NCBI GenBank assembly: GCA_037349105.1
Contig: JAYJMM010000090.1
Coordinates: 360,001 to 424,000 of the forward strand
Direction of reading: 5' to 3'
DNA: 64,000 bases
DNA from: Limnomonas spitsbergensis
Taxonomy: Eukaryota > Chlorophyta > Chlorophyceae > Chlamydomonadales
In this document: positions 1-64,000 of the stretch, piece by piece
How positions within the stretch are numbered: position 1 is the first letter of the stretch
Layout: each line of letters opens with the position of its first letter
Notes under the pieces: model-generated
The model's database searches: none
Seen by the model: only the letters and a program-made list of their open reading frames with translations
Told to the model about the DNA's origin: nothing
Made by a program: the position numbers and the translations under genes

Positions 1-68
1 AAGCAAAATGAAAACCTCCACGTCTCCTACCCTCACCCTGACCTCACCGCACCTGAGAAAAGCCCGTG

Positions 69-116
69 GCCCACTGCGCTTTTTGCCTGCTTCTTGAGCT
101 CCATAAACACCCCCTG
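69..116 (-). repeat. Decoy copy of last exon's 3' edge
   Basis: The segment repeats the 3' end of exon 161-278 (ELKKQAKSAVGHGLF) and ends in its own GT, immediately downstream of the true exon. It is a boundary-spanning tandem duplicate. Confidence 0.75.
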
Positions 117-160
117 TTACAGCCCCGTAACTCAACTTCCCCTCCCCCCACTCGACTCAC

Positions 161-3100
161 CTGTGAATAGCCCGTGGCCCACTGCGCTTTTTGCCTGCTT
201 CTTGAGCTCCGAAAGCTGTGTGAGTAGACGCGCCTCCATGTCAAAGGTGCGAAGCCAAACCAGGGTCCCTGACGTTACCTGCGGCCAGCAAATGAACATG
301 AAGGTTTTAGGGTTTAGGGTTAGGGTTCAGTGCTCAGTTGATAAGCCAAATCAGGGTATCTGACATAACCTGCGGCCAGAAAATGAGCATGAAGGGTTTA
401 GGGTTAGGGTTCAGTGCTCAGTTAATAAGCCTAATCAGTGTATCTGACATAACCTGCGGCCAGAAAATGAGCATGAAGGGTTTAGGGTGAAGGGTTTATT
501 GCTCAGTTAATAAGCCAAATCAGGGTATCTGACATAACCTGCGGCCAGAAAATGAGCATGAAGGGTTTAGGGTGAAGGGTTTATTGCTAGGTTGATAAGC
601 CAAATCAGGGTCTCTGTCCTGACCTGCGGCCAGTAAATGAAGGAACCAGGTACAACTTAAGGGTACAGGGTTTAGGGTTTATTGCTAAGTTGATAAGCCA
701 AATCAGGGTCTCTGTCCTGACCTGCGGCCAGTAAATGAAGGAACCAGGTACAACTTAAGGGTACAGGGTTTAGGGTTTATTGCTAAGTTGATAAGCCAAA
801 TCAGGGTCTCTGTCCTGACCTGCGGCCAGTAAATGAAGGAACCAGGTACAACTTAAGGGTTAAGGGTTCAGATGTGAGACTTACTGCTCAGTTGATAAGC
901 TGAATCAGGGTTTCCGACGTTATATGCAGCCAGAGGAGAACATTAAGGGTCTAGGGTCTGGGGTCTGGGATTAGGGTCTAGGGTTAAGGGTTGAGGATCA
1001 AGGTCTGGGGTTTTGGATTAAAGGTGTAGAGATCAGGCTTGAAGGTGAAGGGAAAATAGCTTAAACATGAAGTCAGGGAGGGGGTCTGGCGCGATTCCCC
1101 GCTAAATGTGCCAAGCAAGATCAAGGTTACGAGTTTAGGGCTCAGGGTTCAGGTTGCTGGGTTCAGGGCTCAGGTTTTAGGGTTCAGGATTTAGGGGTGG
1201 GGAGTGGAAGAGGCACCTCCACATCAAAGATGAGAGGCTAGATCAGGGCCTAAACCCTGAACCCTAAACGAGGCACCTCCACATCATATTTGCGAAGCCA
1301 GATCAGGGCCTTAGGATGTCACATACAGAAGGTGCATGGCGGAAACGGGTAGAGGGCTGTGTGGTTTGGGGTTCCGTCGCAAAGCCAGATCAGGGCCTCA
1401 GACATCAGCCGCAGGAAGTGAACGGAGTTCCTGGATTGGGGGGTTATGGCTTCATCCGCAAGCCAGATCAGGGTTTCAGACATCCCCCACAAGAGGTGCA
1501 TGCAGGAACCAGGATTAGGATATAGGGTTAAGGATTTTGGGGTTCAGCCAGAGGCCCTAGGGTTTCGTGGTTGGGGTTCAGCCACGGGGCTTAGGGTTTC
1601 GGGGTTGAGCTTCAGCCACAGGGATTAGGGTTTCGGGGTTGAGGTTCAGCCAGAGGCCTTAAGGTTTCGGAGTTCAGGTGCAGCCACAGGGATTTTATGA
1701 TTTCGGGGTTGAGGTTCAGCCACAGGCCTTAGGGTTTAGAGGTTGGGGTTCAGCCACAGGGCTTAGGGTTCAGGGGTTGAGGTTCAGCCACAGGGCTTAG
1801 GGTTTAAGGGTTGGGTTTCAGCCACAGGGCTTAGGGGTCAGCTGCTAAGCCAGATCAGGGTCTCAGCCGGTGGCCCTGAACAACAGGCACGGAGGGGCGT
1901 ACTGCCTCGTACCGCTCCATTCAACCTCTTAACCCTCTCTCTGCCTCCACCTCTGCGGTACGGATCGTTCTGCGGCTGTCGCCAGTGCCGGGCGGTGCTG
2001 AACGGCGACCGCCGAGTGGAGTACCGCCTCGTACCGACGCGGTGTTCATCCGACCGAGACGGCCGCTGGCGCCGCCGCCGCTGCTGCTGCTACTAAAGAC
2101 ACTGCTGCTGCTTCCTGGCGGGCCTAAGCCCTGGGAAATGAGGGTGTAGGGTTTGTGATTAAGGCTTTTGGTTTAAGGGCAAAGGGTAAAGGTTTAAGGT
2201 GCAGGGGGGGTGTGAGGAAGGGGAGGGGAATGAGTGACGGCTGGAATGGCTGGAGTGGCGTACCGCCTCGTACCAACGCAATGTTCATGCGACAGAGGCC
2301 GCCGCTGGCGCCGCCGCCGCCGCAGCTGCTGCTGAATGTACTGCTGGTGTTGCCCAGAGGACCTAAGCCCTGGGAATGAGTAGCGGTACGATATGAGGCG
2401 ACCACCCGAGCGGCGTACCGCTACGCTCTGGCGCGGGGTTCATGCGAACAAGGCGACGGCTGCTGGCGCTGCGTACTGCTTAGGGTTTAGGGTTTAGGAT
2501 TTAGGATTTGGTTGTCAGGAGGGCCTATGGCCGGTGCTTAAGGTTGAGAGTTCAGGGTTTAGGGTTGAGGGTTTAAACTAGGATCTTGATCAGTGCTGTG
2601 CCGATGGCGGTCCTAAGGGTGGCTTGTGAGAGGGTTTAAAGGTTAAGGGGTTAAGGGTTGAGAATTGAGGGTTTTAGGGTTACGGTTTTAGGGTTACGAT
2701 TTCATGCCTCACCTGTCGTGATGCATTCCTCCCTGTCTCCATCTCTTGGATCCAGAGGGTGCTGTGCATAAGGCTCAGGGTTACGAGTCCATAATTTAAG
2801 GACGTAAGGATTTAAGAGTTAAGGGTTCAGGGTTTTGGTTTTGATGCCTCGCCTGTCGTGATGCACCTCTCCGTTTCCACCTCTTGGACTCAGAGGGTGC
2901 AGTGCATAAGACGCTCAGGATTACGACTTCATGGTTTGAGGACGTAAATATTTAAAGGTTAAGGGTTCAGGGTTTTGGGTTTGATGCCTCACCTGTCGCG
3001 ATGCACCCTTGCCCGTCTCCACCTCCTGGGCCCTCAGAGCCGCCAGCTTAGAGGGCCAGGCACGCGCGACAGCCATGATTGAGTGCATCTCCTTGGAAAC

Positions 3101-12100: not shown

Positions 12101-15100
12101 ATGCCCTGAGGAAAACACAGTAGCACAATAAGGCACAATATTGCATGATGAGGTTCCATACGGCAGAATTGCATGGTGCATGGTGCATTGTGGAAGGGCG
12201 CCAGATAGCAGCCATGCCCTGAGGAAAAGTAGCACAATAAGGCACAATATTGCATGATGAGGTTCCATACGGCAGAATTGCATGGTGCATGGTGCATTTT
12301 GGAAGGGCGCCAGATAGCAGCCATGCCCTGAGGAAAACACGGTAAGGCACAAACCGGCATGATGATGTTCAGTACGGCAGATTTAGGGTTAGTGATTTAG
12401 GGTTAAGGATTTAGGACGACTGTAGATTTGCTATGCCTTCCCTCATAATTTATGTTGTTTGGGGTCGAGGGATCCTTGAATTTCCTCATCATCGATTGTC
12501 GACGCCAGTTTCCAGTCAGAAATTAAGAGTTTTTGTCGATTATTTGCCATGAGGGCAGCATTAAAACAAATCATTTTTCTATGTCCGAGGGAAGGTAAAT
12601 CAAATCTACGGTAGTGGTTTAAGGACAGGATTTAGGGTCGATATGAACCAAATATGAACACTTTCATGTTCAGCGGTAAAATTGAGAACGCATTTCCGCA
12701 TGGTGGATGAGCGCCACCAGTGGCCATGACCAGGAGTAGAGTTGAGAAAGCGTTTGCATGGTGCATGGTGCATGGTGCATGGTGCATGGGCGCCAGACCG
12801 CGGCGATGTTCAGCGGTGCAAATGAGAATGCATGTCCGGATAATGGACGGGTGCCAACCAGTGGCCATGACCAGGAGAAGAGTTGAGAAAGCATGGTGCA
12901 TGGTGCATGGGCGCCAGACCGCGGTAATGTTCAGCGGTACAAATGAGAATGCATGTCCGGATAATGGACGGGTGCCAACCAGGGGCCATGACCAGGAGAA
13001 GAGTTGAGAAAGCACGGTGCATGGTGCATGGTGCATGGGCGCCAGACCGCAGCAAAGTTCAGCGGTAAAATCGAGATCGCATTTCCGCATGGTGGATGGG
13101 TGCCACCCAGTGGCCATAACCAGGAGTAGAGTTGAGACAGCATTTGCATGGTGCATGGTGCATGGTGCATTTGCATGGTGCATGATGCATGGTGCATTTG
13201 CATGGTGCATTTGCATGGTGCATTTGCATGGTGCATGGTGCGTGATGCATGGTGCATTTGCATGGTGCATGGGCACCAGGCTACGGCCATGCCCTGACAC
13301 AGCATTGAGAGCAGTGCTGTGCCGTTGCGCTATAATTCTGAAACCGTGTAAGTAATTATGGTCCCTTACTGGCAAAATTAGCAGAATCAGAAATTAGAAG
13401 TTATGGTGACTGAAACTCAGCTACGTAATTTAGCTACCGTTAGGACCGTGATCGGCGCAGCGCTGATTGAAAGCGAGAGGCCTATTATCGAGAGGGGGTA
13501 AAAAAATATTGAACTATCTTCAAGATTTATTCATGATTAAAAACAAGTTGTTATGCCTCAGTGCTGCCTTAAGCGCACGCCATTCTCCAGAAAGCTCCGT
13601 CATGTACCGGTAGTTCAGGTCTGAGTGTCAAGGCTTAAGAGTTAAGGTTTAAGGGGAATGTTAATACCGGTACTAATTCTACTCTTCTACTACTCTACTA
13701 TTCTGAAGGTTTGAGGAATGGTGAATGAATTAAGGACAAACGGATTAGGGCATGCTTCAGTTTTTCTTGGCAGGCCATTTAGCTGTGGCATACTTCAGGT
13801 TCCAGGTTTAGGTTCAGTGTTTAGGGTACAGAGTTTAAGGTTCAGGGTAAAGAGTTTAGGGTTAATGGCTTGGGGTTAGGGGTCCAGGGTAAACAGCTAA
13901 GGTTTTCAAAGGCATACAATGTATGCCAGCGTCAGGGTGTAGGGTAAGGGTGCAGGGAAATCCCATCAAATGGTTTAGGGTTTAGGGTTAAGGGCTCAAC
14001 TCCATCTGAAGCCATAACCCAGAACCGCAAGTCTTCAACCTTTGCAAGAAACCACGCAGATCTCTGCAGTGAGCTTGTCAGGTGTAGGGCCCTAAACGCT
14101 TCCTCTTAAGACCCTAGACGTTAACCTTGAACGCTTCGTCTTAATAACCTAAACCCTGAACTTTAAACGCTTTGTCTTAAGGCCCAAACCCTGAAACTTA
14201 CCCCCACCTCCTCCCCCCCACGCACACACATACCTGCAGTGAGCTCATAACCTGGATCTCATAACCATCCTTGGTTGAAAAGGGCAAGGAGCTCGGGAGG
14301 AAGGTGTCCGGCAGCCCGTCTGACATGACTCGATTCAGCAGCTCAACGGCTGCGCAGAAAAGAAAGGGCACACATTAAGTGTGGTGAAGTAGGGGACAGA
14401 GCGGAAAGTGTGATGGAAGAGGGAGTGAAATAGAAAGTGTGATGGAATAAGGAGCAAAGTGTGAAGTGTGATGGAATAAGGTGCAACACAATAGGTGTGA
14501 TGGAATCTGGAACTAAGTGTGAAGTGTGATGGAATTAGGAGCAACACATGAAGTATGATGAAATCAGGAACGAGGTGTGTAGTGTCTTACGCAGTGGCTG
14601 AGCCATGAGCCGCCCCCACCGCGCCGCCTTCAAAAAGAAGCCGCAGCGTGACACCTACACTCGTTTCCCTGACCCCTAAAATCCAAAACCTAACTTCTAA
14701 ATCGAAGAATGCAAACATAACAATGTCTTGAGGGCACGTAAGCTCCATAAACCCTTAACCACAGCACTCCAGCCTCAAAGCCTAAACCCTGAAGTCTCTC
14801 ACCATCTTTTGAAACCAGACGCAGCACGTGCGGCAAGCCGAAACAAAGCTGGCCCCAGCGGGTCTACACAGCTTCAGATCCACAAGCAACAGCCTTCAAA
14901 ACGTTAACCCTCCAAGCATAAACCCTTAAAGCCTAAACCCTGAAACCTCTCACCATCCTTTAAAACCAGGCGCAGCATGTGCGGCAGGCCGAAGCAGAGG
15001 CCAACCCCCGGCGTGTTTACACAGCTTCGGGACCCCAAAAGATACATCCTGTTTGGCTCAACCCTAAAAGCATAACCCTCCAAAACCAATCACCATCCTT

Positions 15101-18100
15101 TTAAACCAGACGCAGCAGGTGCGGCAGGCCAAAACAGAGGCCCACCCCCGCGTGTCTACACAGCTTCGGGTCCCCAAACGATACACAGGCCGCAGCGCTC
15201 AAACCTGACGGCAGGCCTACACAGCTTCAGGTCCACAAACGACACGTAGGCTGCATTACTAAGCCCTCAAGCCTTTAACTGTCTTAAGAAACCAGACGCA
15301 GCACGTGCAGCAAGCCGAAACAGAGGCTGGCCCCGGCATGTCTGCACAGCTGGAGGTCAGAGCAGAGCACGTGTAGGCCGCTTTGAGAAACCCTCAAACC
15401 TCTCTCCATCCTCTAAAACCTACACCCTCAAACCTCTCACCATCTTTAGAAACCAGACGCAGCACGTGCGGCGGGCCAACACAGAGGCTGGCCCCGGCGT
15501 GCCTACACTGCTTCAGGTCCAAGCGAAGCCACATTACTAAACCCTCAAACCTCTCACCATCCTTTGAAACCAGACGCAGCATGTGCGGCAAGCCGAAACA
15601 AGGCTGGCGCCCGCGTGCGGCAGGCAGAAGCAGAGGCTGGCCCCGGCGTGTCTACACAGTTTCAGATCTCGGTAAAGCAAGTGTAGGCCGCTTTTCTGAA
15701 CCCTCAAACCTCTCACCATCTTTTGGAACCAGGTGCAGCACATGCCAAAACAGAGGCTGGCCCCCACGTGCCTACACTGCTTGCGGTATGAGCAAAGCAT
15801 GTGTAGGCCGCTTCGCTCAACCCTCACACCTTTCACCATCCTCTGAAACCAGACGCAGCACGTGCGGCAGGCCAAGACAGAGGCTGGCCCCCGCGTGCCT
15901 GCAGAGCTTCAGGACTGCAAACGGCACGTAAGCCACTTTGCTCCTGCATCAAAGCCTGAACCCTGAAGTCTCTCACCCTCTTTTGAAACCAGAGGCAGCA
16001 CGTGCGGCAAGCCAAAACAGAGGCTGGCCCCGGCGTGTCTACAGCTTTGAGTCACCAAACGATACACAGGCCGCAGCGCTCAAACCTGACAGCAGGCCTG
16101 CACAGCTTCAGGTCCGCATGCGACACATAAGCCGCTTCTCTTAACCCTCAAGCCTCTCACCGTCTTTAGAAACCAGACGCAGCACGTGCGGCAGGCCGAA
16201 ACAGAGGCTGGCCCCGGCATGTCTACACAGCTTGAGGTCTGAGTAAAGCACGTCCACGCTGCCTTCGGCGTCGCACTCGGCCGCGACGTTTGCGTCCATC
16301 TCGCGCCACAATGCCGACTGGTCGACGTACACGGCGAGGACGTTGGCCAGGTACAGGTAGGGGTTGTCCGGCAGGCGGGGTTCTGAGAAAAGGCCCTTGA
16401 GGGAATCCCGGATTGCTGTGGCCTGAGAATGGGGAGGTGGGGGGGGAGGTGTGAATGTGGTGGCCAGGTACAGGTAGGGGTTGTCGGGCAGGCGGGGCTC
16501 TGAGAGCAGGCCCTTGAGAGAGTCCAGGATTGCTGTGGCCTGAGAATGGGGAGGTGGGGGGGGAGGTGTGAATGTCGTGGCCAGGTACAGGTAGGGGTTG
16601 TCGGGAAGCGAGGCTCTGAGAACAGGCCCTTGAGAGAGTCCCGGATTGCTGTGGCCTGAGAATGGGGAGGGGGGGGGGGAGGTGTGAATGTCGTGGCCAG
16701 GTACAGGTAGGGGTTGTCGGGCAGGCGGGGCTCTGAGAGCAGGCCCTTGAGAGAGTCCCGGATTGCTGTGGCCTGAGAATGGGGAGGTGGGGGGGGAGGT
16801 GTGAATGTGGTGGCCAGGTACAGGTAGGGGTTGTTGGGAAGCGAGGCTCTGAGAGCAGGCCCTTGAGAGAGTCCCGGATTGCTGTGGCCTCAGAATGGGG
16901 AGGTGGGAGGGGAGGTGTGAATGTGGTGGCCAGGTACAGGTAGGGGTTGTCGGGCAGGCGGGGCTCTGAGAGCAGGCCCTTGAGAGAGTCACGGATTGCT
17001 ATGGCCTGAGAATGGGGAGGTGGGAGGGGAGGTGTGAATGTGGTGGCCAGGTACAGGTAGGGGTTGTCAGGAAGCAAGGCTCTGAGAGCAGGCCCTTGAG
17101 AGAGTCCAGGATTGCTGTGGCCTGAGAATGGGGAGGTGGGGGGGGAGGTGTGAATGTGGTGGCCAGGTACAGGTAGGGGTTGTCCGGCAGGCGGGGTTCT
17201 GAACTAGGCCTTTGAGAGAGTCCCGGATTGCTGTGGCCTAAAAATGGGGAGGTGGGGGGGAGGTGTGAATGTGGTGGCCAGGGACAGGTAGGGGTTATCG
17301 AGCAGGCGGGGTTCTGAGAATAGGCCTTTGAGAGAGTCCCGGATTGCTGTGGCCTGAGAATGGGGAGGTGGGGGGGGGGGTGAATGTGGTGACCAGGTAC
17401 AGGGAGGGGATTTTGGGCAGTAGGGGCTCTGAGAATGGACCTATGATAGGGAATCTCGGATGGCTGTGGCCTATAAAATGGTTTACAAGTTCAGGGTTGA
17501 GGGCTCAGGGTTTAGGGCTCTGAGAAGGTGTAGGGGTGAGTTGAATGGTGGGACGTGGGGGCATGGGGCACCATCGGGATGATGTTGCATGGTGTTGCAT
17601 GGTGGGACATGGGGGAGTCTTTGCATGGCGGGAGACGGCGGGGCATGGGGAGCATAGGGTGTGTTGAATGGTGGGACGTGGAGGCATGGGGTGCAAGTAG
17701 GATGATGTTCACGGCATTGCATGGTGGGGCATGGGGGAGTGCTTTGCGTGGTGGGAGGCAGCGTGGCATGGGGAGCACTGGGTGGGGTTGAGTTGAATGG
17801 TGGGACGCGGGGGCATGTGGTGCAAGTGGGATAATGTTGCAGGGCGTTGCATGGTGGGACATGGGGGAGTGCTTTGCATGGCGGGAGACGGCGGGGCATG
17901 GGGAGCAAGTGGGATAATGTTGCATGGCGTTGCATGGTGGAACATGGGTGGGTCTTCTGCATGATAGGGAAAGCGGGATGATGTTGAATGGCGCCGCATG
18001 GTGGGGAAGTGGGAGCATCATGGAGGTGTATTTCACATGGTAGAAACGCAGATACAGGGACATGGGGATAAGAAGTCGCATGGGGCACATGGCGTGGCAT

Positions 18101-27309: not shown

Positions 27310-30300
27310 CTAAACCACCCCCGCTGGCATGCCCGGCCGCCATGTCGTGCCCTCAGGTGCGTCCATGATCATAACCCCGCGGTCGGCCAGCTCCACGCGC
27401 ACCGCATCCCCCGCCGCAAAGTCCTTGGCGTCCCGCGCAGCCGCACGCGCCAAGATGCGGCCGGCGACGTCCGCCTCGCTGAGCCCGGCGCGGACCAGCG
27501 TCAAGCGCCGCAGCTCCGACAGCGCAGCGGAAAGGCCAGACACCGCCAGCGGCGCCGGCGCCGGCGCCACCGGTGCGGCGGCGGCGGGCACCGCCGCCTC
27601 GGCCGGGTCCAGCCCCAGCAGGCGCAATACCGCTGCCGCCGCGAGCTCGATGCCTGCTAGCTGCTGCAGTCGGTCTGGGAGCTTCTTCCCAGCCTTCGTC
27701 GTCAGCAGGTCATTGGCGGTCTTGAGCGGCGCGGAGAGCTCCGAGACCGCGGAGGGCGTGTTGAGGTCGTCAAGCAGCGCGAGCGTCGCCGCAGCTGACG
27801 CGGCCGAGGCAGGGGTGGGCGACGAAGCGGCTTGTTGCCGGGCGGACTCACCGGCGGGACCTGATTTAGGGCGCGGTGGACGGAAAGCTTCACAAGTTTG
27901 CGGAATGGGACACCCGGGAAGTCGTGGAACGGGCGGTACTTCCCCTCCCCACTCCTCCCCCCACCCGAGAAAATCACGAAGCGGGCCGTGTTTCCCGTCC
28001 CCTCATTTCCTCCTCACCAGCGGCATCCTGCGCTTCCCTCAAATCCAAGAGGGATAAATCTTAAACCCTGAACATAACTGACCCCTAAACCCTAAGCCTT
28101 AGCCCTAACCCTTAGCACAAATGAACCCTAAACCCTTAACCTGTAACCCCCCCAAAACTGATCGCTCCCTCTCTCCGCCCCCCCCCCCCCACCGCCTCTT
28201 CCTCCCCACCCTGTACCCCTTCGGAAAAGGCGCAACTGGCGCACAACCGCCGGTATTTCCATCCCCAGACCTCCATTATTAATGAAATCGCGACATGGGT
28301 GGTGTGCCCTGTATTCTCTTTCCACCCTCACGCCTGTAGCGTCCAGCGGTTGCCTTATGTCCGAGAAAGCCTGAAGCACACATGGATAAACACCGCTCGC
28401 TCCTCCCTCCCCTTCTCCCTCCTTCTCCCACCCCAGGAAATTTCGACACTGGCGGTGTGTCCAACCGCCTTTCCCCCCTCACCTGCAGCGTCCAGCGCTT
28501 GCCCCACATCCAGGAGGGCCTGGTACACATAATACAGCCGGTCGCTTGCTTCCTCAAGGGCACGTTGCGTGTAGTTGACTTGCTGCCGGTAGTGTGTGGA
28601 GACGAGGAACCAACGTAGGGACAGAGGATGGTATTTAGCAATGACCTGTAGGGGCAGGTGTAGGTGCAGTTGTAGAGGCAGAGGTATGGACAGAGGTAGG
28701 GACAGAGGTAGGGGCAGAGGAAGGGGCAGAGGTAGGGACAGAGGTAGGGACAGAGGTAGGGACAGAGGTAGGGACAGAGGTAGGGACAGAGGTAGGGACA
28801 GAGGTAGGGACAGAGGTAGGGGCAGAGGTAGGGACAGAGGTAGGGGCAGAGGTAGGGACAGAGGTAGGGACAGAGGTAGGGACAGAGGTAGGGACAGAGG
28901 TAGGGACAGAGGTAGGGACAGAGGTAGGGACAGAGGTAGGGACAGAGGTAGGGACAGAGGTAGGGACAGAGGTAGGGACATAGGTAGGGACAGAGGTAGG
29001 GGCAGTTGTAGAGGCAGAGGTAGGGACAGGTGTAGGTGCAGTTGTAGAGGCAGAGGTAGGGACAGAGGTAGGGACAGAGGTAGGGACAGAGGTAGGGACA
29101 GAGGTAGGGGCAGAGGTAGGGGCAGAGGTAGGGACAGAGGTAGGGACAGAGGTAGGGGCAGAGGTAGGGGCAGAGGTAGGGACAGAGGTAGGGACAGAGG
29201 TAGGGACAGAGGTAGGGGCAGAGGTAGGGACAGAGGTAGGGACAGAGGTAGGGACAGAGGTAGGGACAGAGGTAGGGACAGAGGTAGGGACAGAGGTAGG
29301 GACAGAGGTAGGGACAGAGGTAGGGACAGAGGTAGGGACAGAGGTAGGGACAGAGGTAGAGGCAGAGGTAGGGACAGAGGTAGGGACAGAGGTAGAGGCA
29401 GAGGTAGGGACAGAGGTAGGGACAGAGGTAGGGACAGAGGTAGGGACAGAGGTAGCGGCAGAGGTAGGGACAGAGGTAGGGACAGAGGTAGGGGCAGAGG
29501 TAGGGACAGAGGTAGGGGCAGAGGTAGGGACAGAGGTAGGGACAGAGGTAGGGACAGAGGTAGGGACAGAGGTAGGGACAGAGGTAGGGACAGAGGTAGG
29601 GACAGAGGTAGGGGCAGAGGTAGGGGCAGAGGTAGGGACAGAGGTAGGGACAGAGGTAGGGACAGAGGTAGGGACAGAGGTAGGGACAGAGGTAGGGACA
29701 GAGGTAGGGACAGAGGTAGGGGCAGAGGTAGGGACAGAGGTAGGGACAGAGGTAGGGACAGAGGTAGGGACAGAGGTAGGGACAGAGGTAGGGACAGAGG
29801 TAGGGACAGAGGTAGGGACAGAGGTAGGGACAGCGGTAGGGGCAGGTGTAGAGGCAGAGGTAGGGACAGAGGTAGGGACAGAGGTGGGGACATAGGTAGG
29901 GGCAGGTGTAGGTGCATTTGTAGAGGCAGAGGTAGGGACAGAGGTAGGGACAGAGGTAGGGGCAGGTGTAGGTGCAGTTGTAGAGGCAGAGGTAGGGACA
30001 GAGGTAGGGACAGAGGTAGGGACAGAGGTAGGGGTAGGTGTAGAGGCAGAGGTAGGGACAGAGGTAGGGACAGAGGTAGGGACAGAGGTAGGGACAGAGG
30101 TAGGGACAGAGGTAGGGACAGAGGTAGGGACAGAGGTAGGGACAGAGGTAGGGGCAGAGGTAGGGACAGAGGTAGGGACAGAGGTAGGGACAGAGGTAGG
30201 GACATAGGTAGGGACAGAGGTAGGGACAGAGGTAGGGGCAGAGGTAGGGGCAGATGTAGGGACAGAGGTAGGGGCAGAGGTAGGGACAGAGGTAGGGACA

Positions 30301-32239
30301 GAGGTAGGGACAGAGGTAGGGGCAGAGGTAGGGACAGAGGTAGGGACAGAGGTAGGGACAGAGGTAGGGACAGAGGTAGGGACAGAGGTAGGGACAGAGG
30401 TAGGGACAGAGGTAGGGACAGAGGTAGGGACAGAGGTAGGGACAGAGGTAGGGACAGAGGTAGGGACAGAGGTAGGAACATAGGTTGGGACAGAGGTAGG
30501 GGCAGAGGTAGGTGCAGTTGTAGAGGCAGAGGTAGGGACAGGTGTAGGTGCAGTTGTAGAGGCAGAGGTAGGGACAGAGGTAGGGACAGAGGTAGGGACA
30601 GAGGTAGGGACAGAGGTAGGGACAGAGGTAGGGACAGAGGTAGGGACAGAGGTAGGGACAGAGGTAGGGACAGAGGTAGGGACAGAGGTAGGGACAGAGG
30701 TAGGGACAGAGGTAGGGACATAGGTAGGGACATAGGTAGGGGCAGAGGTAGGGACAGAGGTAGGGACAGAGGTAGGGACAGAGGTAGGGACAGAGGTAGG
30801 GACAGAGGTAGGGACAGAGGTAGGGACAGAGGTAGGGACAGAGGTAGGGACAGAGGTAGGGACAGAGGTAGGGACAGAGGTAGGGACAGAGGTAGGGACA
30901 GAGGTAGGGACAGAGGTAGGGACAGAGGTAGGGGCAGAGGTAGGGGCAGAGGTAGGGACAGAGGTAGGGACAGAGGTAGGGACAGAGGTAGGGACAGAGG
31001 TAGGGACAGAGGTAGGGACAGAGGTAGGGACAGAGGTAGGGACAGAGGTAGGGACAGAGGTAGGGACAGAGGTAGGGACAGAGGTAGGGACAGAGGTAGG
31101 GACAGAGGTAGGGACAGAGGTAGGGACAGAGGTAGGTGCAGTTGTAGGTGCAGTTGTAGGGACAGAGGTAGGGACAGAGGTAGGGACAGAGGTAGGGGCA
31201 GAGGTAGGGACAGAGGTAGGGACAGAGGTAGGGACAGAGGTAGGGACAGAGGTAGGGACAGAGGTAGGGACAGAGGTAGGGACAGAGGTAGGGACAGAGG
31301 TAGGGGCAGAGGTAGGGACAGAGGTAGGGACAGAGGTATGGACATAGGTAGGGACATAGGTAGGGACAGAGGTAGGGACATAGGTAGGGACATAGGTAGG
31401 GACATAGGTAGGGGCAGAGGTAGGTGCAGTTGTTGAGGCAGAGGTAGGGACAGAGGTAGGGACAGAGGTAGGGGCAGAGGTAGGGTATTTCTGAAGGTAG
31501 AGTTACGGGCAGGGATAGGGACAGGGGCAAGTGGGTATGGTAATTTGCGATGACCTGTAGGGGCAGGGACGGGGTCAAGGGCAGGGTCAAGGTCAGGTGT
31601 TAGAGGGTCACCTGTAGGAGGAAGGCTTGGTGACCTGTAGAGGAAGGTGTTTAGGATTTCGGGTTAAGGGGGTTGGCCACATGTAGGGGATCTGTGTGGG
31701 GGGGAAGCTTGGTGTCCCCTCCAGGGTTGAGGGTTGAGGGTTAAGGTTTTAGGGTTGGCGTTCATGTGTGAGGTTAAGGGTTCAGGGTTTAAATTAATTT
31801 GCGGGGTTGGGGTTACGGTTGGCATTCATTTGCGAGGTTTAGGGTTTGAGCTTGGGTTTGTTTCTCTGGCTACCCTACCTCTCTGTTCACAAACCCGTAA
31901 CCCTAAACATCTGTAAACCCTTTGTATCTTCAATTGTGAGCCCCGATTATCCAATTGTCAGCCCTAAACCCTACCTCTTCGGTCTTTAAGCCTCAACCCT
32001 AAAACCTACCTGTTGGGTCTTTGACCCTAAAACCTACCTCTTGGGCCTTGACCTAAACCCTACCTCTGAATTCGACAACCCTACACCCTACTTCTTGAAT
32101 AATGAAACCCGAAGCCCTACCTCTCGTATCGTGAAGAAGTTCCCTAAGCTCTTGCTCATCTTCTCGCTGTCCACATTCACAAAGCCATTGTGCAGCCAGT
32201 AACGCACAAAGCCCGCACCAGCAGCATCAGCAGCAGCAT

Positions 32240-32271
<32 letters not shown>

Positions 32272-35200: not shown

Positions 35201-37188
35201 CATGAAAACACATCTGGTATCTCTCCTCTGACCTCTTGTCCTCCTGCGCTCTCCCGGACAGCCGCCCGTAGCCGGGGCAGCGAGTCCATCTCAAAGCTAA
35301 ACATTGCGCCCTCCCGCCTCTCATCGCACAAACCAATCCATAAAAATGACGATATAAGACACCGTGATACGCAAAACAAATGAAAACAAAACTGATATTT
35401 CTCCTCTGACCTGTTGTCCTCCTGCGCTCTGCCGGACAGCCGCCCGTAGCCGGGCAGCGAGTCCACCTCGAAGTAGACATCGCCTCCCACGGCGTAGGCA
35501 TGCCCGTTGGTCATGATGCGTTCTATGGTGGTGATCATTTGTGGAATGAAGTCCGTGGCCTTGGGCTCAAGGCTTGGAGGCAGGCAGCCCAGTGCGGCCA
35601 TGTCCTGCATGGGGATGCATGGGTTCGCATGGGGTGGATGCAGTCTATGGCCTTGGGCTCCAGGCTGAGAGGGAGGCAGCCCAGTGCGGCCATGTCCTGC
35701 AAGGGGTTGTATGGGGATGCATGGAGATGCATGGGCGGGATGCAGTCTGTGGCCTTGGGCTCAAGGCTTAGGGGCAGGCAGCCCAGTGCGGCCATGCCCT
35801 GCATGAAAATGCATGGGTGTGCATGGGGTGGATGCAGTCTATGGCCTTGGGCTCCAAGCAATAAGGCAAGCAGCCCAGTGCGGCCATCGTCTGCATGGAG
35901 TTGCATGGCATTGCATGCGTATGCACGTGTGGGATGCATTCTGTGGCCTTGGGTTCCAGGCTGAGAGGGTGGCAACCCAGTGTGGCCATGTCCTGCATGG
36001 GGAGGCATGGAGAAGCATGGATGTGCATGCCGTGGGGCGGGGCTTTCTGTTCCAGGATAGTTTGCACCAGGGCTTGCTGGTTGCGCCCAAACCCTCCATG
36101 CCTCAGGATCCTCAGAAGAGATGCCCGGTGTGGTGGGCCGTTATTGCGCTCATCTCCCATGCACATCGCAGCGTACCGTGTGGAATTCCCCGATGAACCG
36201 CCGAGACAGTTCCAGCGGGTCCTCCCCTCGCTCGTTCGCCCGTGCAATGATCTTGTCGTCGATGTCTGTGAAGTTGCGGACGTACTGCACGCTGTACTGC
36301 AGGTGGCGCAGCAGGCGGTACAGGACGTCAAACGCGACGTACACGCGGGCATGCCCTACAGAGAGGGTGGGTGCAGCGGCGGGGAATTGATTTCGCGAGG
36401 TACACAAGGGTGATGAGGTACAAAAGGGTGACGAGGTACACAAGGGTGATGAGGTACAAGAGGGTGACGAGGTACACAAGGGTGATGAGGTACACAAGGG
36501 TGACGAGGTACACAAGGGTGATGAGGTACAAAAGGGTGACGAGGTACACAAGGGTGATGAGGAGGAGTGAACTGATATTCTTATGTTTCCAGCGCCGGGA
36601 TATTTTTTGTATCCAAACACATGCCGGACACAACCAGTGCTGTGCAATATTCGCCATAATTGAGACACCGTGTCAATACAGTACGGTCCCTTACTGAGAA
36701 AAGTAGCTGAATTTGCCGTAAAATTACGGTGACTAAAACTCGGCTACCGTAATTCAGCCACCGTAAGGGCAGTCATCGGCAGGGCAGCACAGGATACAAC
36801 GCATTACTCATAACACATCCTGGGCTTATGGCCTGTTGTGGCGGGAACGGTGGTGGGGCATGGATTTTGCGCCTTATCGAGGTGCCAAGGGGTCAAGGAT
36901 ATTAACTCAGATTGTGCGAGGGTTCAGAGTTCAGGGTTCAGGGTTCAGAGTTCAGGGTTCAGAGTTCAGGGTTCAGGGTTCAGGGCCTAACCCTGATCCT
37001 TGCTAAGGATTCAGGGTTGATGACCAAACCCCAACATTTCTGAGTTCTGACCACACACCTATGTGGCTGAAATCGTACACGGTGACCCCGCACACGTACA
37101 TCTTGACCAAGTCCGGTCGATCCTCATGAGTCCGAAAGGCTTCTTTGCCGCGCGACATGGTGTTGTAGAGCTGGAGCTTTGCACGCAT
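27310..37188 (-). CDS. CARS: Cysteinyl-tRNA synthetase, 8 exons
   Basis: It joins cysteine to tRNA-Cys (class I aminoacyl-tRNA synthetase). Exons in transcription order are 37059-37188, 36177-36355, 35411-35604, 34453-34566, 33846-33916, 32121-32482, 28483-28645 and 27310-27860. All junctions are GT-AG with matching phase, giving about 587 residues. Signature motifs appear in the expected order: [10 protein letters not shown] (first zinc Cys), SHIGHARVY (HIGH, split by intron 1), [41 protein letters not shown] (second zinc Cys), [11 protein letters not shown] (zinc His and Glu) and [11 protein letters not shown] (KMSKS). The C-terminal tail is [16 protein letters not shown]. The start shown is the ATG at 37188. 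An Ala-rich in-frame extension upstream and a separate targeting-peptide exon are possible, so compartment is open. An Ala-rich insert of about 65 residues sits between HHENE and KMSKS. Introns are packed with exon-edge copies. Confidence 0.93.
28305..28385 (-). repeat. Decoy 3' edge of exon 28483-28645
   Basis: It repeats the end of the exon (QALDAAG in the true exon, QPLDATG here) with the CAGGYGTGAGG donor context, about 150 bp downstream of the true donor. Confidence 0.8.
28655..31500. repeat. 2.8-kb 12-bp minisatellite (GAGGTAGGGACA)n
   Basis: Well over 200 units of 'gaggtagggaca' with scattered A-to-G and G-to-T variants and occasional 'gtgtaggtgcagttgtagag' spacer blocks. It fills the intron just upstream of exon 28483-28645, and the exon's acceptor context (CTGCCCCTACAG on the minus strand) resembles the unit. 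Because 12 is a multiple of 3, it yields 900-1100-codon artefact frames on both strands. These are not genes. Confidence 0.97.
31530..31556 (-). repeat. Decoy 5' edge of exon 28483-28645
   Basis: It repeats CCCCTACAGGTCAT plus the next exon bases (VIAKYH in the true exon, VIANYH here) at the far side of the minisatellite. It is about 2.9 kb from the true acceptor at 28646-28647, so the minisatellite lies between two exon-edge copies. Confidence 0.8.
32209..32331 (-). repeat. Coding (GCT)n trinucleotide expansion
   Basis: An imperfect GCT/GCA run inside exon 32121-32482 encodes a poly-Ala insert in cysteinyl-tRNA synthetase. On the minus strand there is no AG between about 32331 and 32209. 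The run therefore cannot end in a normal acceptor and is most simply read as coding. Confidence 0.75.
32614..32647 (-). repeat. Decoy 5' edge of exon 32121-32482
   Basis: It repeats GCAGTCGCGACCTGGTTTTC (true edge GCGGTCGCGACCTGGTTTTC, coding GRDLVF) about 150 bp upstream of the true acceptor. The decoy's AG is lost (CGAG in place of CCAG). Confidence 0.8.
32690..33520. repeat. GAGAGCAGGATGGGGAT minisatellite
   Basis: About 45 units of an 18-bp motif, with a higher-order block of roughly 130 bp containing 'atccatgcaggatggatcga' repeated near 32730, 32795, 32937 and 33090. Long minus-strand frames are artefacts. Confidence 0.95.
33570..33765. repeat. 30-bp tandem repeat, six perfect copies
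   Basis: The unit is 'taagatctaggtaaaacagc' plus 'tgcctgtctg', head to tail with no spacers and nearly identical. It lies just downstream of exon 33846-33916. Confidence 0.95.
33950..34300. repeat. CATGGG hexamer minisatellite
   Basis: A (CATGGG)n tract with roughly 65-bp higher-order units containing 'cacgtaaataagggagcatg'-like blocks. Intronic. Confidence 0.9.
34612..35055 (-). repeat. Four decoy 5' edges of exon 34453-34566
   Basis: Units of about 120 bp near 34612-34692, 34738-34818, 34860-34937 and 34975-35052 repeat the acceptor and about 70 exon bases. The true exon reads [13 protein letters not shown] and [11 protein letters not shown]; copies read, for example, PADFALWMS and LADLELWKS. 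Each is followed by a short T/C-rich intron piece. Confidence 0.92.
35215..35335 (-). repeat. Decoy 3' edge of exon 35411-35604
   Basis: It repeats the exon end (DSLP, then [10 protein letters not shown] in the true exon) and the downstream intron including GGTCAGAGGAGA. A one-base insertion frameshifts the copy. About 180 bp downstream of the true donor. Confidence 0.88.
35640..36005 (-). repeat. Four decoy 5' edges of exon 35411-35604
   Basis: Units of about 100 bp (acceptors near 35698, 35800, 35890 and 35993) repeat the acceptor and about 55-60 exon bases (true [16 protein letters not shown]; copies [16 protein letters not shown] and similar). Several keep acceptor AG and frame. The true acceptor is at 35605-35606. 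Confidence 0.93.
36405..36565. repeat. 18-bp tandem repeat (GAGGTACACAAGGGTGAY)n
   Basis: Nine units directly upstream of exon 36177-36355. Not exon-derived as far as I can see. Confidence 0.92.
36635..36792. mobile_element. hAT-type MITE, copy 3
   Basis: It starts CAGTGCTGTGC and ends GGGCAGCACAG, with a flanking 8-bp duplication GACACAAC / GATACAAC. It lies inside the first intron of cysteinyl-tRNA synthetase. Confidence 0.85.
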
Positions 37189-53824: not shown

Positions 53825-56800
53825 TTCCTCTGAAGGTTGGAACGAGCGCAACCTTCCCACCCTGTACGCCTGATTAAGTCGAGACAACGCTGCACTGTTC
53901 CCTAACCCTAACATCCATGCGGGGCATCGTTATCATTACTTTATGTTTATACTGACATTGCTGCGCCCGCACGGGTCCCTTACTGCGCACGCACTGTTCC
54001 CTAACCCTCACATCCCTGTCGGGCATCGTTTTCTTTTCTTTCTGTTAAGACTGACATTGCTGCGCCCCTTTTTGCACTGTTCCCCAACCCTCACGTCCCT
54101 GCAGAGCATTGTTATATTTTCTTTCTGTATAGGCTGACATTGCTGCGCCCTTTTGCACGCAGGACCCTACATCCTGATGATGGAAAAGTAAGTTTTTCTT
54201 CTAGTCTAGGGTGTGGCAGCTACACGTAATCCGTTCCTCAGCTACACTGTAACCTCTGTTCAGCTGTGAAGTTTATGAAGCTTTTACAGTCCAACAGAGC
54301 ATCACATTTGATGCATGAGACATGTGCCCGTAAACTGGTACATGCATTTGATACACCAGGACAGTACAGCTACAATGCTGATTTTGCCATTTCCCTTCTT
54401 GCGTCGCACTCCAGACATTCAATGCTGCGCATCCATGATGCTCGGTACGGTGATCGTTTAACCCCATGCAGCGCCATGCAAACCCATGCAACCTTATGTT
54501 ACCTCATGCAAACCCATGCAACCTTATGTTACCTCATACAAACCCATGCAACCTTATGTTACCTCATGCAAACCCATGCAACCTTATGTTACCTCATACA
54601 AACCCATGCAACCTTATGTTACCTCATACAAACCCATGCAACCTTATGTTACCTCATGCAAACCCATGCAACCTTATGTTACCTCATACAAACCCATGCA
54701 ACCTTATGTTACCTCATACAAACCCATGCAACCTTATGTTACCTCATACAAACCCATGCAACCTTATGTTACCTCATACAAACCCATGCAACCTTATGTT
54801 ACCTCATACAAACCCATGCAACCTTATGTTACCTCATACAAACCCATGCAACCTTATGTTACCTCATACAAACCCATGCAACTCCCAGGGCTCTGATGCG
54901 CCAAGCCATGATCATCGCCAAGACCTACCCCAAGGCAGAGCGCAAGGCCTACAAGCAGGCTGCCAGGGAGCTGCGCATGCCCTACTGGGATTGGGCGCTC
55001 CTCGGACGCGACGGCATGGAAGTGCCCACGGTCCTCACCTCGACCACCTGGGTCGTCGACGGCCCCGCTGGCAAGGCGCTGATGAAGAATCCGTTCTTCA
55101 GCTACACCTTCCAGCAGGACTTCTCCCCTGGGACCGTGGCCCAGGGCGGCTACACGCAGCTCCAGTACGACTCTGTCCCCTGGACGTCACCGAAGGGCTC
55201 ATCCACTGTGCGCTTCCCCGTGAGTAGTGGCGCCTGGTCTGTTCTGTGTTAATGACGATAAACCTCTGGGCCATGCTGAAAATGATGCTCGGCCACGTCG
55301 GCAAACAAAAAGTCTCATCTGCGCCTGGTCTGGTCTGTATAGCAAGACCAAGCTGGTGGGCCCCTTCACCCTTCACCCTTGTTGCTGTTTCTCAACGCTT
55401 CCACCAACGGGCCGATTCACCTGAAACCCTTAATGCTTTTCCTCAACGCCCCCACCCATGGGACCCTTCGACCTTTGCCCTGGCGGCCTCCTCCAGCTCC
55501 ATGCCGATAGGAAGTTATACAAACAGGACCTAAACCCTAAACTCTGTTAGTTTAGTGTGAGGGTTTACGCCATCATCCCTTCGTGGACTCAACTTCATGA
55601 TACTGCCCATGGCACCTTCAAACCCCTGAACCCAAAACCTTCAACCCTTGCCTCCTTCTCCTTCAGGTTCCTGCCGATGGGAAGAATAACAACAGGACCT
55701 GAACCCTAAACTCAGTTACTTTAGGTTGAAACCCTTCAACCCAAACCTTAAACCCTTGCTGCATCCTTTTTCCAGCTCCCTGCCGATGGAACCTTTTAAA
55801 CCCTTAACCCCTACACCAATGGGACCTTAAAAACCCAAAACCCTTGCTGCCTCCTCCTCCAGGTCCTCGCCGACCTTTTTATGCCCCTGAACCCCAAACT
55901 CCGTTAGTTTAGGGTTAAACCCCTGAACCCAAAACCCTGGCCTCCTCCTCCTTCAGATTCCCGCCGATGGGAAGTATTGCAACAGGACCTAAACCCTTAA
56001 CTACCTTAGTTGAGGTTTAAACTCTTGAACCCAAAAACCTGAACCCTTGCTGCTTCCTCGTTCAGGTCCCCGCTGATGGGACCTCAAATCCCTGAACCCA
56101 GAACCCCTGAACCCGGAACCCCCTCAATCCTTAACCCTTCAAACCCCCTGAACCCTAAACACTGGTCTCATCTGTCTTACGTCAGGTTCCCGCCGATGGG
56201 TTGTTTTACAACAGGACCACGTACGCCCCGTCCTACGTTTCCAACATCTCGCAATTCGCGCTCTCCGCCATGACCAACTCGCAATCGGATCCATTCTCCT
56301 TCGTCGGCCAGTCCTGGGCTTCCATCGTGCTTGACGTGATGAACATCAAAACCTGGTGAGCGGCCCTAAACCCTTAACCAGGCCTGGTTCAGGCGCACGC
56401 GCCGGCTTAAAGGCCTCTTGTCTTGAATGCGGATCCTTAAATAAAGGGAGAGACCTGAGGAGGCAGCAGATATAGGGTCAGGCTTGCTAAGGACAAAGTA
56501 TCCGGCTTGTCTAGACAAAAATCGATCGTGAGCGACCGGGGTGGTTCAGGCGCGGGCCAGACTTCAGGCTGTTGTCATTTAGATCAGCAAACAAAACCCT
56601 AAACCCTAAACAAAACCACCGGTCACTGCTGGTAATATCGGCACAGCACCGATGGTATGTAATAAGTTGTTTGAAGGCTTGGGTGGATGACGCCAAAGAA
56701 ACAACCCGATTGCTGAAAATTGGCCAGGCAAATCTGACCAGGTGTTAGGCCTGATTCAAAATCCTTAACCCTAAACCCGAATGCTGGAACTTGGCCAGGC

Positions 56801-59086
56801 AAATTTGACCAGGTGTTTAGGCCTGACACAAAACCCTAAACCCTTAACCCTAAAACCAGTCCTAACCCAGAAACCTGATGTTGTCCACTTGTCCCGTCTC
56901 TGCCCAACTGCAACCCAAACCTTCAACTAACCTGCAGTGTGAACACTACATTTCGAGCTTAGAATCTGTACCCAGGAACCCGACGGCTGGCCTGCTAACC
57001 ATCACTGTTAACCATCACTGGCCTGCTGTCCAATCATAGCCTAAACCCTGGACCAACTCGTGAATGCTCACTGCATTCTCCAAGCATAGAATCTGAACCC
57101 TGAAACTCGACCGCTGACACGGCGGGCAGTGGCCTTCTGTCTCAGTCTTTTTAGTGGTTACCGGACCACCTTAGATGGGCCGTGCTGCGGCCACCCCTGG
57201 GCTGATTGATACCAAACCTGGACTGGCCTTCGGGCCGGAGGCCATGGCAGCAGGGCTGGCCGAGCCCAGGGGCTGGTGGCCGAAGGCCACAGTGTAGCTG
57301 ACATAAAGCTGAAAGTGATGCGGCAACCACTGCACAAACAGTGCTGCTGTCCAACTGCAGGGGTTGCATGGCCAGCGTCCTGGAGCAGCTGCAGAACGAG
57401 AACGAATGCCTCTACACATCGATGGAGCTGCTCCACAACCTGCTGCATTACCACCTCGGAGGCGAGAACTATCAGGTGCAAGGCACCTTTTACCCCCTGG
57501 GGCCCTCGGCTTTCGACCCCCTCTTCTTCCTGCACCACGCCATGGTAAGTGATTAGGCCGCACAGGTGTTGCACCTCGCCGTCCTGAATCGCAACGTGAT
57601 GAGTGGGAGGCGGCATGCACTTTCCTGCACAACATGCAATTGTTTGTGCTCAATCGTCGTCCCGGGCATTTGCTGAGACCCTATCTTGGTCCTGCACCTA
57701 GCCATGGTGTGGTGTGCATTTCATTCGCGGCAGGCGGGGAGCACGCAATTCACTGGGCAGTGACATGGTTGCTTGTGGTCAAGTATCGATTGGTTGCGCT
57801 GAAGCCTCGATTGCATGCGCTTCAGAGCTTTAGTTGCAGCACCGGTAACAATTGTGTACCCTTAAGTCCTAAACCCTATTCATCAGAGTCCTTGCTTTGG
57901 CCGGGACTGTTGGCCCACTCCTACGCGACTCACCTCACCTAGCATGAACCCGAATTTGCATGGGGACCTGCACATGCATGGGGAGCTGTACACGCATGGG
58001 GACCGGTACCTGCAAGGGGACCTGTACACGCATGGGGAACGGCACATGCATGGGGACCTGTACCCGCAAGGGTACCGGTACTTGCAAGGAGACATGCACC
58101 TGCATGGGGACCTTCACATGTATGGGGAGATGTACATGCATGGGGAGATGTACATGCATGGGGACCTGTGCCCGCATGGGTACCTGTACCTGCAAGGGGA
58201 CTCGTACATGCATGGGGACCTGTTCATGCATGGGGACCTGTCTATGCATGGGACATGAACATGCATGGGGACTTGTACGTAAATAGTAGCAAATATCTCC
58301 CTTGGCTTGCTAAAGCATGAATGATTCTGATCGCTTGCTGCGAATATTCCTCATGTGCAGGATGATCGGCTGCTGGCTATCTGGCAGGGCCTTCACCCTG
58401 GCAAGTGGGTGACCCCGAACATCTCCCCCGAGGGCTCCTATATGTACGAGCCGGGCATGCCGCTGGACGCCCTCACCCCTCTTTGGCCTTTCGTAAAGGA
58501 CAACGGAGAATCGATAACCAGCGTCGACGTCATCAACTGGGAAGATTACGGCTACACTTACGAGATCCTCGACGGTAAGCCGGACAATCACGAGCTGCTC
58601 TCCAGGATGACTACGCTATACGGCCCGACGCTGGCCACCGGCTTCAGGTGGTGGGCATGCGCGACGTGCGAGAGCACCAACGCCGATGCCATCACGTACA
58701 ACTACGTCTACTTTGGCGTCACCTTCTCCCCTCGCAATGTCTCGAATCACGTTCTGGTCAACAGCAACCAGGCTCAGCTGAAGGACAGGGACGGCGTCCC
58801 CACCCTGACGTTTACGTACTCCTCTGAGATCACTAACTACATGAAAGCTGCGGGCATCGACACGGACGTACCACCCATCAACGACGACTACGAGCAGGGC
58901 CCGTCCTTCATTCCCATCGGCCGCAACGAGATGACCCACGAGTGCAGATCTGCACTGGGAGCGCTCATCGAATGCACTTGCCAGATCAACGCCTGCTGGT
59001 CTGTGAGCGCTACCGTGAAAGACCCAGTCGCCAAGCAGGGCAAGCTTATCCTGCCAGCCATGCCAGAGGCCACGGCTTGCAAATAG
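52619..59086 (+). CDS. Secreted tyrosinase (type-3 copper oxidase), 6 exons
   Basis: Tyrosinases oxidise phenols to quinones with a two-copper centre. Exons are 52619-52964, 54163-54187 (25 bp), 54889-55219, 56186-56355, 57361-57544 and 58361-59086. All are GT-AG, all phases match, giving 593 residues. A signal peptide (MTMPLLLIATLLSCNSVFA; outer ATG three codons plus) precedes the mature chain. Copper site A: SIHGAPAGPY and CPHGATIFPSWHR, the latter completed by PYILMMEK from the micro-exon (classic WHRPY). MPYWDWALL follows. Copper site B: LHNLLHYHLGG and DPLFFLHHAM-DDRLLAIWQ. The remaining ~190 residues form a C-terminal region with Cys pairs (WWACATCE, ECTCQINACW). Several N-glycosylation sequons fit secretion or vacuolar targeting. 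Introns carry arrays, including exon-4 edge copies. Confidence 0.93.
53880..54162 (+). repeat. ~85-bp tandem repeat before tyrosinase micro-exon
   Basis: Three to four units share 'tgacattgctgcgcccttttgc', 'actgttccctaaccct' and 'gggcatcgtt'. The last unit ends in the acceptor of the 25-bp exon 54163-54187, so the acceptor context was amplified. Earlier units lack the exon bases. Confidence 0.85.
54470..54885 (+). repeat. 30-bp tandem repeat, ~14 copies
   Basis: Near-identical units 'aacccatgcaaccttatgtt' plus 'acctcatrca' fill intron 2 up to the acceptor of exon 54889-55219. They are open in all three plus frames, giving artefact ORFs. Confidence 0.97.
55252..55312 (+). mobile_element. Dispersed element family B, in tyrosinase intron 3
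   Basis: It contains AACCTCTGGGCCATGCTGAA and GCTCGGCCACGTCGGCAAAC, closely matching 60187 and 61727. Confidence 0.7.
55490..56075 (+). repeat. Six decoy 5' edges of tyrosinase exon 4
   Basis: Units near 55495, 55665, 55775, 55860, 55955 and 56062 repeat the acceptor and about 35 bases of exon 56186-56355 (true CAGGTTCCCGCCGATGGG, coding VPADGLFYNRT). Several keep 'aacaggacc'. CCCTGAACCC-type filler separates them. All lie upstream of the true acceptor (56184-56185). Confidence 0.93.
57945..58275. repeat. 18-bp minisatellite (CATGCATGGGGACCTGTA)n
   Basis: About 18 units in intron 5 of tyrosinase. Open on both strands, no gene. Confidence 0.95.
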
Positions 59087-61422: not shown

Positions 61423-61479
61423 TACTAAATTCCACCTGGACCAGCCATGGTCCAAATTAATCACATATGAATGACTAGA

Positions 61480-61925: not shown

Positions 61926-61980
61926 TCACAGGTTTTCCAGGGTTGGGACTGGCCTCCCACAATTTGCTAAGTCAAGCAAA

Positions 61981-62070: not shown

Positions 62071-62099
62071 CAAGCAAAATAATTACGCACACTCGCACC

Positions 62100-62430: not shown

Positions 62431-62435
62431 TGTCA

Positions 62436-63089: not shown

Positions 63090-63149
63090 CTGAACAGACG
63101 CAGAAAACACCACATTCACAATAAAATTGAATTAACAGGTTGAGCCTCA

Positions 63150-63510
63150 GTTGTCCCAATCGTGAAAGCCGACCATTCCGGCTGCCTCTTGAAGCATGTT
63201 GGTTAAACAGACGCAGAAAACACAACATTTAAAAGTGCATCGAGTTAACAGGTTGAGCCTCTGTTGTCCCAATCCGGAAAGCCGACAACCCCGGCTGCCT
63301 CACGGGCACATCGGCTGAATAGACGCAGAAAACACTACGTTATTGTTGTTGTTACGAATTTAACGAATCACTGCAGCCTTTTGCAAAAGGGCCAGACATT
63401 GTCATGCACATTTAGTAATTGGGTTGAGCGTCAGGTGGCCATTCGGAAAACGGACCACTCCGGCTGCCTCTTAGAGTACGTCGGGCAAACAGACGCAGAA
63501 AACACACAAC
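63150..63510 (-). repeat. Three decoy 5' edges of phosphatase exon
   Basis: Units near 63165-63215, 63272-63335 and 63440-63505 repeat GAGGCAGCCGGAGTGGTC and the TTTCTGCGTCTG acceptor context of exon 62990-63089. In most the acceptor AG has decayed. Confidence 0.85.
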
Positions 63511-63624
63511 ATTCACAAAACGCATTTAATCAACCTTGCCTCATGCACAGTCTCACCACAAAAGGAGGCGGAACCCGGCAGTCGTCCTCAGCCGGGTTTA
63601 AGCCTGTTTTGTGCGCGGGGTACC

Positions 63625-63760
63625 TGGGTTGGGGATTAGGGTTTAGGGTTTAGGGTTTAGGGGTACCTGGGTTAGGGTTTAGGGGTTATGGTTTAGGGTT
63701 GGGGTTTAGGGGGTAGGTTTTAGGGTTTAGAGTTAAGGGTTTAGGGGTTAGGGGTTGGAC
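63625..63760. repeat. Interstitial TTTAGGG tract
   Basis: The cleanest telomere-like run in the window, with (TTTAGGG)n and TTAGGG/TTTAGGGG variants on the plus strand. Confidence 0.9.
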
Positions 63761-64000
63761 TAAGGGTCAAGAGAAGAGTGCAGCCTGTCTGAACTGAGGG
63801 CTTGGGGTCCAGGTCTAGGTCCTCAGCCAGGTCTGCGCCCGTTTTCTGCGCAGGCCACGTGGGAACCAGTGATTTTATTTTAGTGGTTACTTGTTGCGAT
63901 TCGTAACCAAAGTGGTAGCCGGAAACTTGATTCGGCGAAGCGGAGGTTCAATCGCGCGATGACCGAAACAAGGAGGAAATTGATTGGGAAATTTTGGCGA
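63760..64000. other. No recognisable feature
   Basis: I see no exon with splice support in the last 240 bases. It is probably intron or flank of the phosphatase gene. Confidence 0.4.

Follow-up and report, generated by a model that had tools for sequence, protein, structure and literature searches.

Tandem copies of exon edges within introns of the green alga Limnomonas spitsbergensis

In the genome of the green alga Limnomonas spitsbergensis (260,226,709 bases in 124 contigs), introns carry tandem copies of the edges of the exons that they adjoin. The copied unit consists of a splice site and some 10-90 adjoining exon bases. The initial annotation of a 64,000-base stretch of this genome (C90:360001-424000, hereafter the window, to which the positions given below refer) had claimed that acceptor copies always lie upstream, and donor copies downstream, of their exon; this is borne out at all 42 copy-bearing junctions among the 211 tested within and outside the window (25/97 acceptors and 17/114 donors). 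At the level of the genomic sequence, the copies, their side, the largely intact AG and GT dinucleotides and a recent expansion in one of a pair of neighbouring paralogs are all evident. It is likely that the arrays originate by recurrent local tandem duplication across junctions, whereby the copy fused to the exon is kept; the decoys are predicted to be spliced out.

Copies of exon edges in and outside the window

Three genes were modelled in the window, namely, CysRS (8 exons), tyrosinase (6) and gene A (2), which together yield 25 junctions (12 acceptors and 13 donors). The CysRS gene, with 61% identity to Chlamydomonas eustigma CysRS, was modelled by spliced protein-to-DNA alignment to two algal CysRS proteins, P0001 and P0002. 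Exons E2-E6, as well as the acceptor of E7, come out alike in both alignments, which diverge over where E1 starts, the donor of E7 and the final exon. For the tyrosinase exons, a fungal homolog and the translation of the window itself served as guides; several edges are supported by one of these two alignments, and that to the fungal protein also yielded spurious small exons. The gene A model is a fragment of two exons. Metagenomic homologs of gene A (P0241-P0243) start at the acceptor of its exon X1 and diverge just past the X1 donor, as judged by eye with a query that stopped at the donor; the rough gene A protein has no Pfam match and no significant match in a PDB search. Among the window frames submitted to Pfam, the curated cut-off was passed only by CysRS, tyrosinase and a DDE transposase, the DDE_Tnp_4 domain of which maps to 46678-47157.

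Intronic copies that include at least 10 exon bases, searched on one strand over a stretch that excluded the upstream tyrosinase exon, are present at 10 of the 25 junctions (6/12 acceptors and 4/13 donors) and involve 7 exons in 3 genes (Table 1). The initial annotation had counted 14 exons or more across four genes, a figure that is not reproduced with the three modelled genes, but its estimate of up to nine decoys per site holds for X1, with 9 acceptor and 10 donor copies. No wrong-side copies with at least 10 exon bases were detected at any of the 25 window junctions. Local BLAST of the window junctions against their surroundings on both strands recovers acceptor copies upstream only and junction-spanning donor copies downstream, with no inverted junction copies. 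Three window donors have an upstream match. At the first exon of tyrosinase, the match comes from a 2-kb duplication that has copied this exon in full, a case separate from the edge copies; the matches at CysRS E4 and the tyrosinase micro-exon are short, do not span the junction and belong to acceptor-side repeats. Under other settings, six wrong-side matches appear at the latter two donors (four at CysRS E4 and two at the micro-exon), and these, too, are acceptor-side repeats, which come within reach owing to the shortness of both exons.

Table 1 Exons with copied edges and the associated arrays in the window
Feature	Positions	Strand	Basis, identity or remark
Gene A exon X1 (ATAIRDSLKGLF...LRLVSKDG)	16161..16422	-	sequence and homologs P0241-P0243
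X1 true acceptor; true donor (GTGAGAGG)	at 16422; after 16161	-	
9 X1 acceptor copies, upstream (~79 exon bases)	16470..17472	-	unit 116-117 bp, 77-94% identity
10 X1 donor-edge copies, downstream	14782..16043	-	68-92% identity; 11 under other search settings
CysRS exon E3	35411..35604	-	spliced alignment to P0001 and P0002
4 acceptor-type E3 copies (59-69 exon bases)	35638..36033	-	77-88%
1 donor-type E3 copy	35166..35296	-	86%
CysRS exon E4	34453..34566	-	spliced alignment
5 acceptor-type E4 copies (40-70 exon bases)	34619..35157	-	83-92%
CysRS exon E6	32121..32482	-	spliced alignment
1 short acceptor-type E6 copy (21 exon bases)	32621..32646	-	92%
CysRS exon E7	28483..28645	-	donor per P0002 alignment; P0001 gave another
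Far acceptor-type E7 copy (~18 exon bases)	31537..31567	-	90%; beyond 2.8-kb array
~236 copies of 12-bp unit between far E7 copy and true E7 acceptor	28647..31485	-	
2 donor-type E7 copies	27952..28380	-	70-74%
Tyrosinase exon E4	56186..56326	+	acceptor from self alignment only; 3' end uncertain
2 acceptor-type tyrosinase E4 copies (33 exon bases)	55615..55989	+	72-78%
Tyrosinase exon E5	57395..57544	+	5' end uncertain
1 donor-edge tyrosinase E5 copy (30 exon bases)	57677..57708	+	81%
30-bp array, acceptor intron side of tyrosinase exon 54889-55219, zero exon bases	54475..54882	+	
83-bp repeat, acceptor intron side of micro-exon 54163-54187	53991..54158	+	

An example of an extended array is that at the acceptor of CysRS E7. 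The sequence of its 12-bp unit is found within the adjacent E7 itself (CCTCTGTCCCTAC), and the unit may be derived from the edge of this exon. Matches of the E7 acceptor inside the array reflect low complexity (5/40 shuffled exons match too); this acceptor is counted as one copied edge because of the far copy and is omitted from the AG count given below. At the tyrosinase acceptors 54163 and 54889, the arrays hold the intron side only. In the X1 array, the identity matrix reveals a two-unit higher-order repeat, a pattern typical of array turnover. A further metagenomic protein, P0245, matches only the donor half of X1 (VLYSDLKLCKH...LRLVSKDG), preceded by an unrelated start, which would be the pattern expected of a decoy copy in a relative.

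Outside the window, genes were sampled by protein family using profile search, with 56 of the 72 matches listed used for chaperonins (PF00118), 22 of 30 for class I tRNA synthetases (PF00133) and 29 of 139 for kinesins (PF00225). The matches were chosen by available DNA and, in the case of kinesins, by compactness, before the array search; one PF00118 match that overlapped another was excluded, and 7 cores in C39 and C99 were added after arrays had been noticed there. In keeping with the view that edges are what is copied, exon middles are not copied as often: among the 107 exon cores, 38 have an end copied on the expected side (25 the 5' end upstream and 15 the 3' end downstream), compared with 7 middle signals on 6 cores and no inverted ones. 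In the 78 chaperonin and tRNA synthetase cores, which lack a junction model, the 5' end is copied upstream in 19 and downstream in 0, and the 3' end downstream in 9 and upstream in 0, with 2 middles copied and 0 inverted. When the 7 late-added cores are left out, the remaining 71 show 17 upstream copies of the 5' end, 8 downstream copies of the 3' end, 0 wrong-side copies, 1 middle and 0 inverted. The 29 kinesin cores have 6 expected-side and 1 wrong-side copies at each of the two ends, and copied middles in 4, three of these cores being short (105-153 bases) and one extending across an intron. Both wrong-side kinesin flags are, as we read them, profile matches that overrun the exon into the intron.

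Junctions outside the window were inferred from profile hits joined at GT-AG or from single hits. Copies are present at 19/85 of these acceptors (14/62 plus 5/23 in kinesins) and 13/101 donors (9/73 plus 4/28), with no wrong-side copies among the 186 junctions. The window is denser in copies than the genes sampled elsewhere (acceptors, 6/12 vs 19/85).

The same asymmetry is apparent at the level of individual bases. Across 16 gene regions, including the three genes of the window, a direct copy within 1.5 kb exists for 50% of the intron bases, 10% of the exon bases and 4.6% of the exon-middle bases; inverted matches cover 0.4% of the intron bases and 0.9% of the exon bases, the exon part being entirely in CysRS. 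The copied share of exon-middle bases reaches 22% in CysRS and 30% in gene A, probably owing to alanine-codon repeats in E6 and edge copies longer than 70 bases; the inverted matches, which involve 7% of the CysRS exon bases, are probably to be put down to the same repeats and long edge copies. Moving into the exon, coverage by acceptor copies drops to zero within about 80 bases and that by donor copies declines to 0.03-0.05, which is what a unit lying across the junction would produce.

Turnover of the arrays and placement of duplications

A case of recent expansion involves two kinesin genes in C124 that are located 15 kb apart and have an exon in common, with 94% identity over 247 bases. 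One of these genes contains an 89-bp unit (~49 exon and 40 intron bases) nine times, with 8 decoys at 96-99% identity and a GC-AAGT donor that is repeated 9 times (L053, oriented 2362-3148); its neighbour has a single GT donor and zero copies. The contrast of 8 vs 0 decoys implies that the expansion is recent; the comparison of copy number is one between paralogs, and a long-read assembly may give inaccurate copy numbers. In a chaperonin pair (C39/C99), the nearest C99 decoy at one exon shows 91% similarity to its own exon, compared with 78% to that of the paralog, whereas at another exon, the decoys are equally or less close to their own exon and look older, possibly predating the paralog split. 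The nearest copy is the more similar one in 10/13 arrays (p=0.08), and identity declines with distance in 8/13, so that the gradient that would result if the junction itself were copied over and over is weak.

We propose that the arrays reflect a general mutational load on non-coding DNA, by slippage or unequal exchange, that would not be aimed at junctions. A duplication that crosses a junction would be tolerated because the exon-fused copy still yields the right mRNA; a duplication within an exon would be purged by selection. The array could then grow and homogenise as any minisatellite, with the spliceosome predicted to choose whichever site lies closest to the body of the exon (exon definition) and the decoys to leave with the intron. 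Ordinary tandem duplication combined with selection suffices under this scheme, without the need for a hotspot. The scenario of repeated tandem duplication with retention of a functional copy, which had been put forward in the initial annotation, is supported, with the functional copy being the exon-fused one, by the side of the copies at 42/42 junctions and by the difference between the kinesin paralogs.

The junctions themselves could be mutational hotspots, where splicing, R-loops or pyrimidine tracts trigger duplication. Such a bias would fit the higher frequency of copies at acceptors than at donors (25/97 vs 17/114, p=0.058) and the enrichment of repeats near intron-exon junctions described for Chlamydomonas and Volvox (PMC3887541). 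However, in 37 introns outside the window, the fraction of points spanned by a local direct repeat is 0.33 in the interior, compared with 0.14 at donors and 0.19 at acceptors, and the direction is the same in the 12 window introns (0.71, 0.17 and 0.42, respectively). The interiors being more repeated than the junctions, duplication appears to be general, with junctions crossed rather than targeted. By this descriptive comparison, the earlier impression that junctions are singled out for duplication is not supported, and we consider a junction hotspot improbable and dropped it. Introns with a spanned junction are longer, with a median of 601 vs 402 bases (n=10 vs 27; a descriptive comparison as well).

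Decoy splice sites

The copies largely retain their splice dinucleotides. With kinesin copies excluded, AG is intact in 33/42 acceptor copies from 15 junctions (0.79, against a mean of 0.72 for other dinucleotides) and GT in 50/53 donor copies from 12 junctions (0.94, against a mean of 0.68), 15 of the 53 coming from one junction. At one acceptor, C106, AG is kept in 0/4 decoys, a loss that could reflect selection against decoys. Decoys were scored at exact alignment columns, 13/42 acceptor and 1/53 donor copies being unscorable. At acceptors, there is no difference in score between decoys and real sites (11 junctions, 29 copies, p=0.43). At donors, the real sites outscore the decoys (11 junctions, 52 copies, p=0.008), and site strength may help discrimination there. 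Nevertheless, at 14/22 column-scored junctions, one or more decoys score as high as the real site or higher, and together with the mostly intact AG and GT, this supports the notion of decoys put forward in the initial annotation. Because the decoys are largely intact, the sites are probably told apart in part by position (exon definition), and we predict that position probably matters besides strength in site choice.

Useful isoforms might, in principle, account for the copies, if these were kept as functional alternative splice sites. The retention of donor GT above neighbouring positions would accord with this possibility, but that score is raised by the inability of the GT of the real site to drift, and the donor copies come from few junctions, one of which contributes over a quarter of them. 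In acceptor copies, AG is retained to much the same extent as the adjacent positions, and the kinesin paralogs differ in copy number from 8 to 0. Furthermore, only 29/95 decoys are in frame, at a multiple of 3 bases, and no more than 9 can be read through without stops, so that decoy use would usually break the protein. With most decoys out of frame, this explanation was dropped as quite unlikely.

The possibility that the arrays are in part assembly artefacts of a long-read genome is more remote still. Units of 89 bp that are nearly the same (96-99%) are difficult to count, but in many arrays the copies differ by 6-30%, beyond what an assembler could invent, and both long and short reads went into polishing the published assembly (PMC11228838). 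Duplication of whole exons, or mutually exclusive exons, was dismissed given that the copies hold one edge, with acceptor coverage ending about 80 bases in. The units carry the exon edge of their own host gene, which would speak against introner elements.

Relation to known systems

The structure of these arrays is known, so that the word 'undescribed', which the initial annotation applied to their density, does not fit the structure itself. In amphioxus, 'mirage' minisatellites, with units of 10-160 bp, have been reported in Adh3 and the globin genes BflGb6 and BflGb9, where RT-PCR suggests normal splicing (PMC3087553), and also in TnC and PGBD5 (PMC3902484). Like the arrays described here, they are boundary-spanning repeats of acceptor and donor types that undergo turnover (PMC3087553, PMC3902484), and many, but not all, of their copies keep AG or GT, as do those counted above. 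Unlike the amphioxus mirages, the present copies are found in a green alga, at 32/186 junctions of three families outside the window and in up to 9-10 copies, and regular splicing is a prediction for them. Mirages are further characterised by a copy number that varies between haplotypes, for which the comparison made here is that of the kinesin paralogs (8 vs 0). Among the papers listed in the literature searched, with subscription journals mostly outside its coverage, we found no report of exon-edge copies in green algae, and the available part of the Limnomonas spitsbergensis genome paper mentions none (PMC11228838). What is new, apparently, is the lineage, the density and the opportunity for a testable natural experiment.

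Other likenesses are more distant. In intron gain by tandem duplication in potato RdRp, the duplicated segment likewise crosses one boundary and inherits splice signals, whereas here, existing introns would lengthen (PMC4974935). In human segmental-duplication genes, minisatellite expansion similarly alters the exon-intron structure of recent paralogs, but there the link is with newly arisen introns and alternative transcripts of primate paralogs, and here the arrays lie in introns of conserved genes (PMC2812944). The introns of Chlamydomonas and Volvox are also rich in tandem repeats, more so toward the intron ends; for these, the accessible text reports positions and motifs and not copies of exon edges or splice sites (PMC3887541).

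The arrays bear on how splice sites are chosen, duplicated splice sites being a classical test of this choice. Under the intron-centred proximity of Reed and Maniatis, the preferred one of two acceptors lies upstream and that of two donors downstream; under exon-centred proximity, preference goes to the sites nearest across the exon (PMC9225289). In the present arrays, the former rule would favour the decoys and the latter the true sites. A broader reading, which we offer tentatively as possible but somewhat short of probable, is that about one-fifth of the acceptors and one-eighth of the donors, tens of thousands of junctions genome-wide, carry duplicate splice sites, that introns lengthen by taking in duplicates of the exon edges next to them, and that the spliceosome ignores the decoys by exon-centred proximity. 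If true, no denser natural collection of duplicated-splice-site experiments would be known. A genome with existing long-read transcripts would hold many natural versions of this experiment, and paralog pairs would allow the rate of array origin and the share of intron length to be measured.

Several other features of the window were observed. The heptamer CCCTAAA/TTTAGGG occurs 90 times in 1-64000, compared with ~8 expected at even base composition. In the tyrosinase gene (50660-59083), a 1977-bp tandem duplication at 49871-53826 (99.2% identity) doubles the first exon, and a 25-bp micro-exon (PYILMMEK) at 54163-54187 is backed by the fungal tyrosinase alignment. Among the matches listed, the best named homologs of this gene are fungal, with Gigaspora margarita at the top (31%), and the gene may have been acquired by horizontal transfer.
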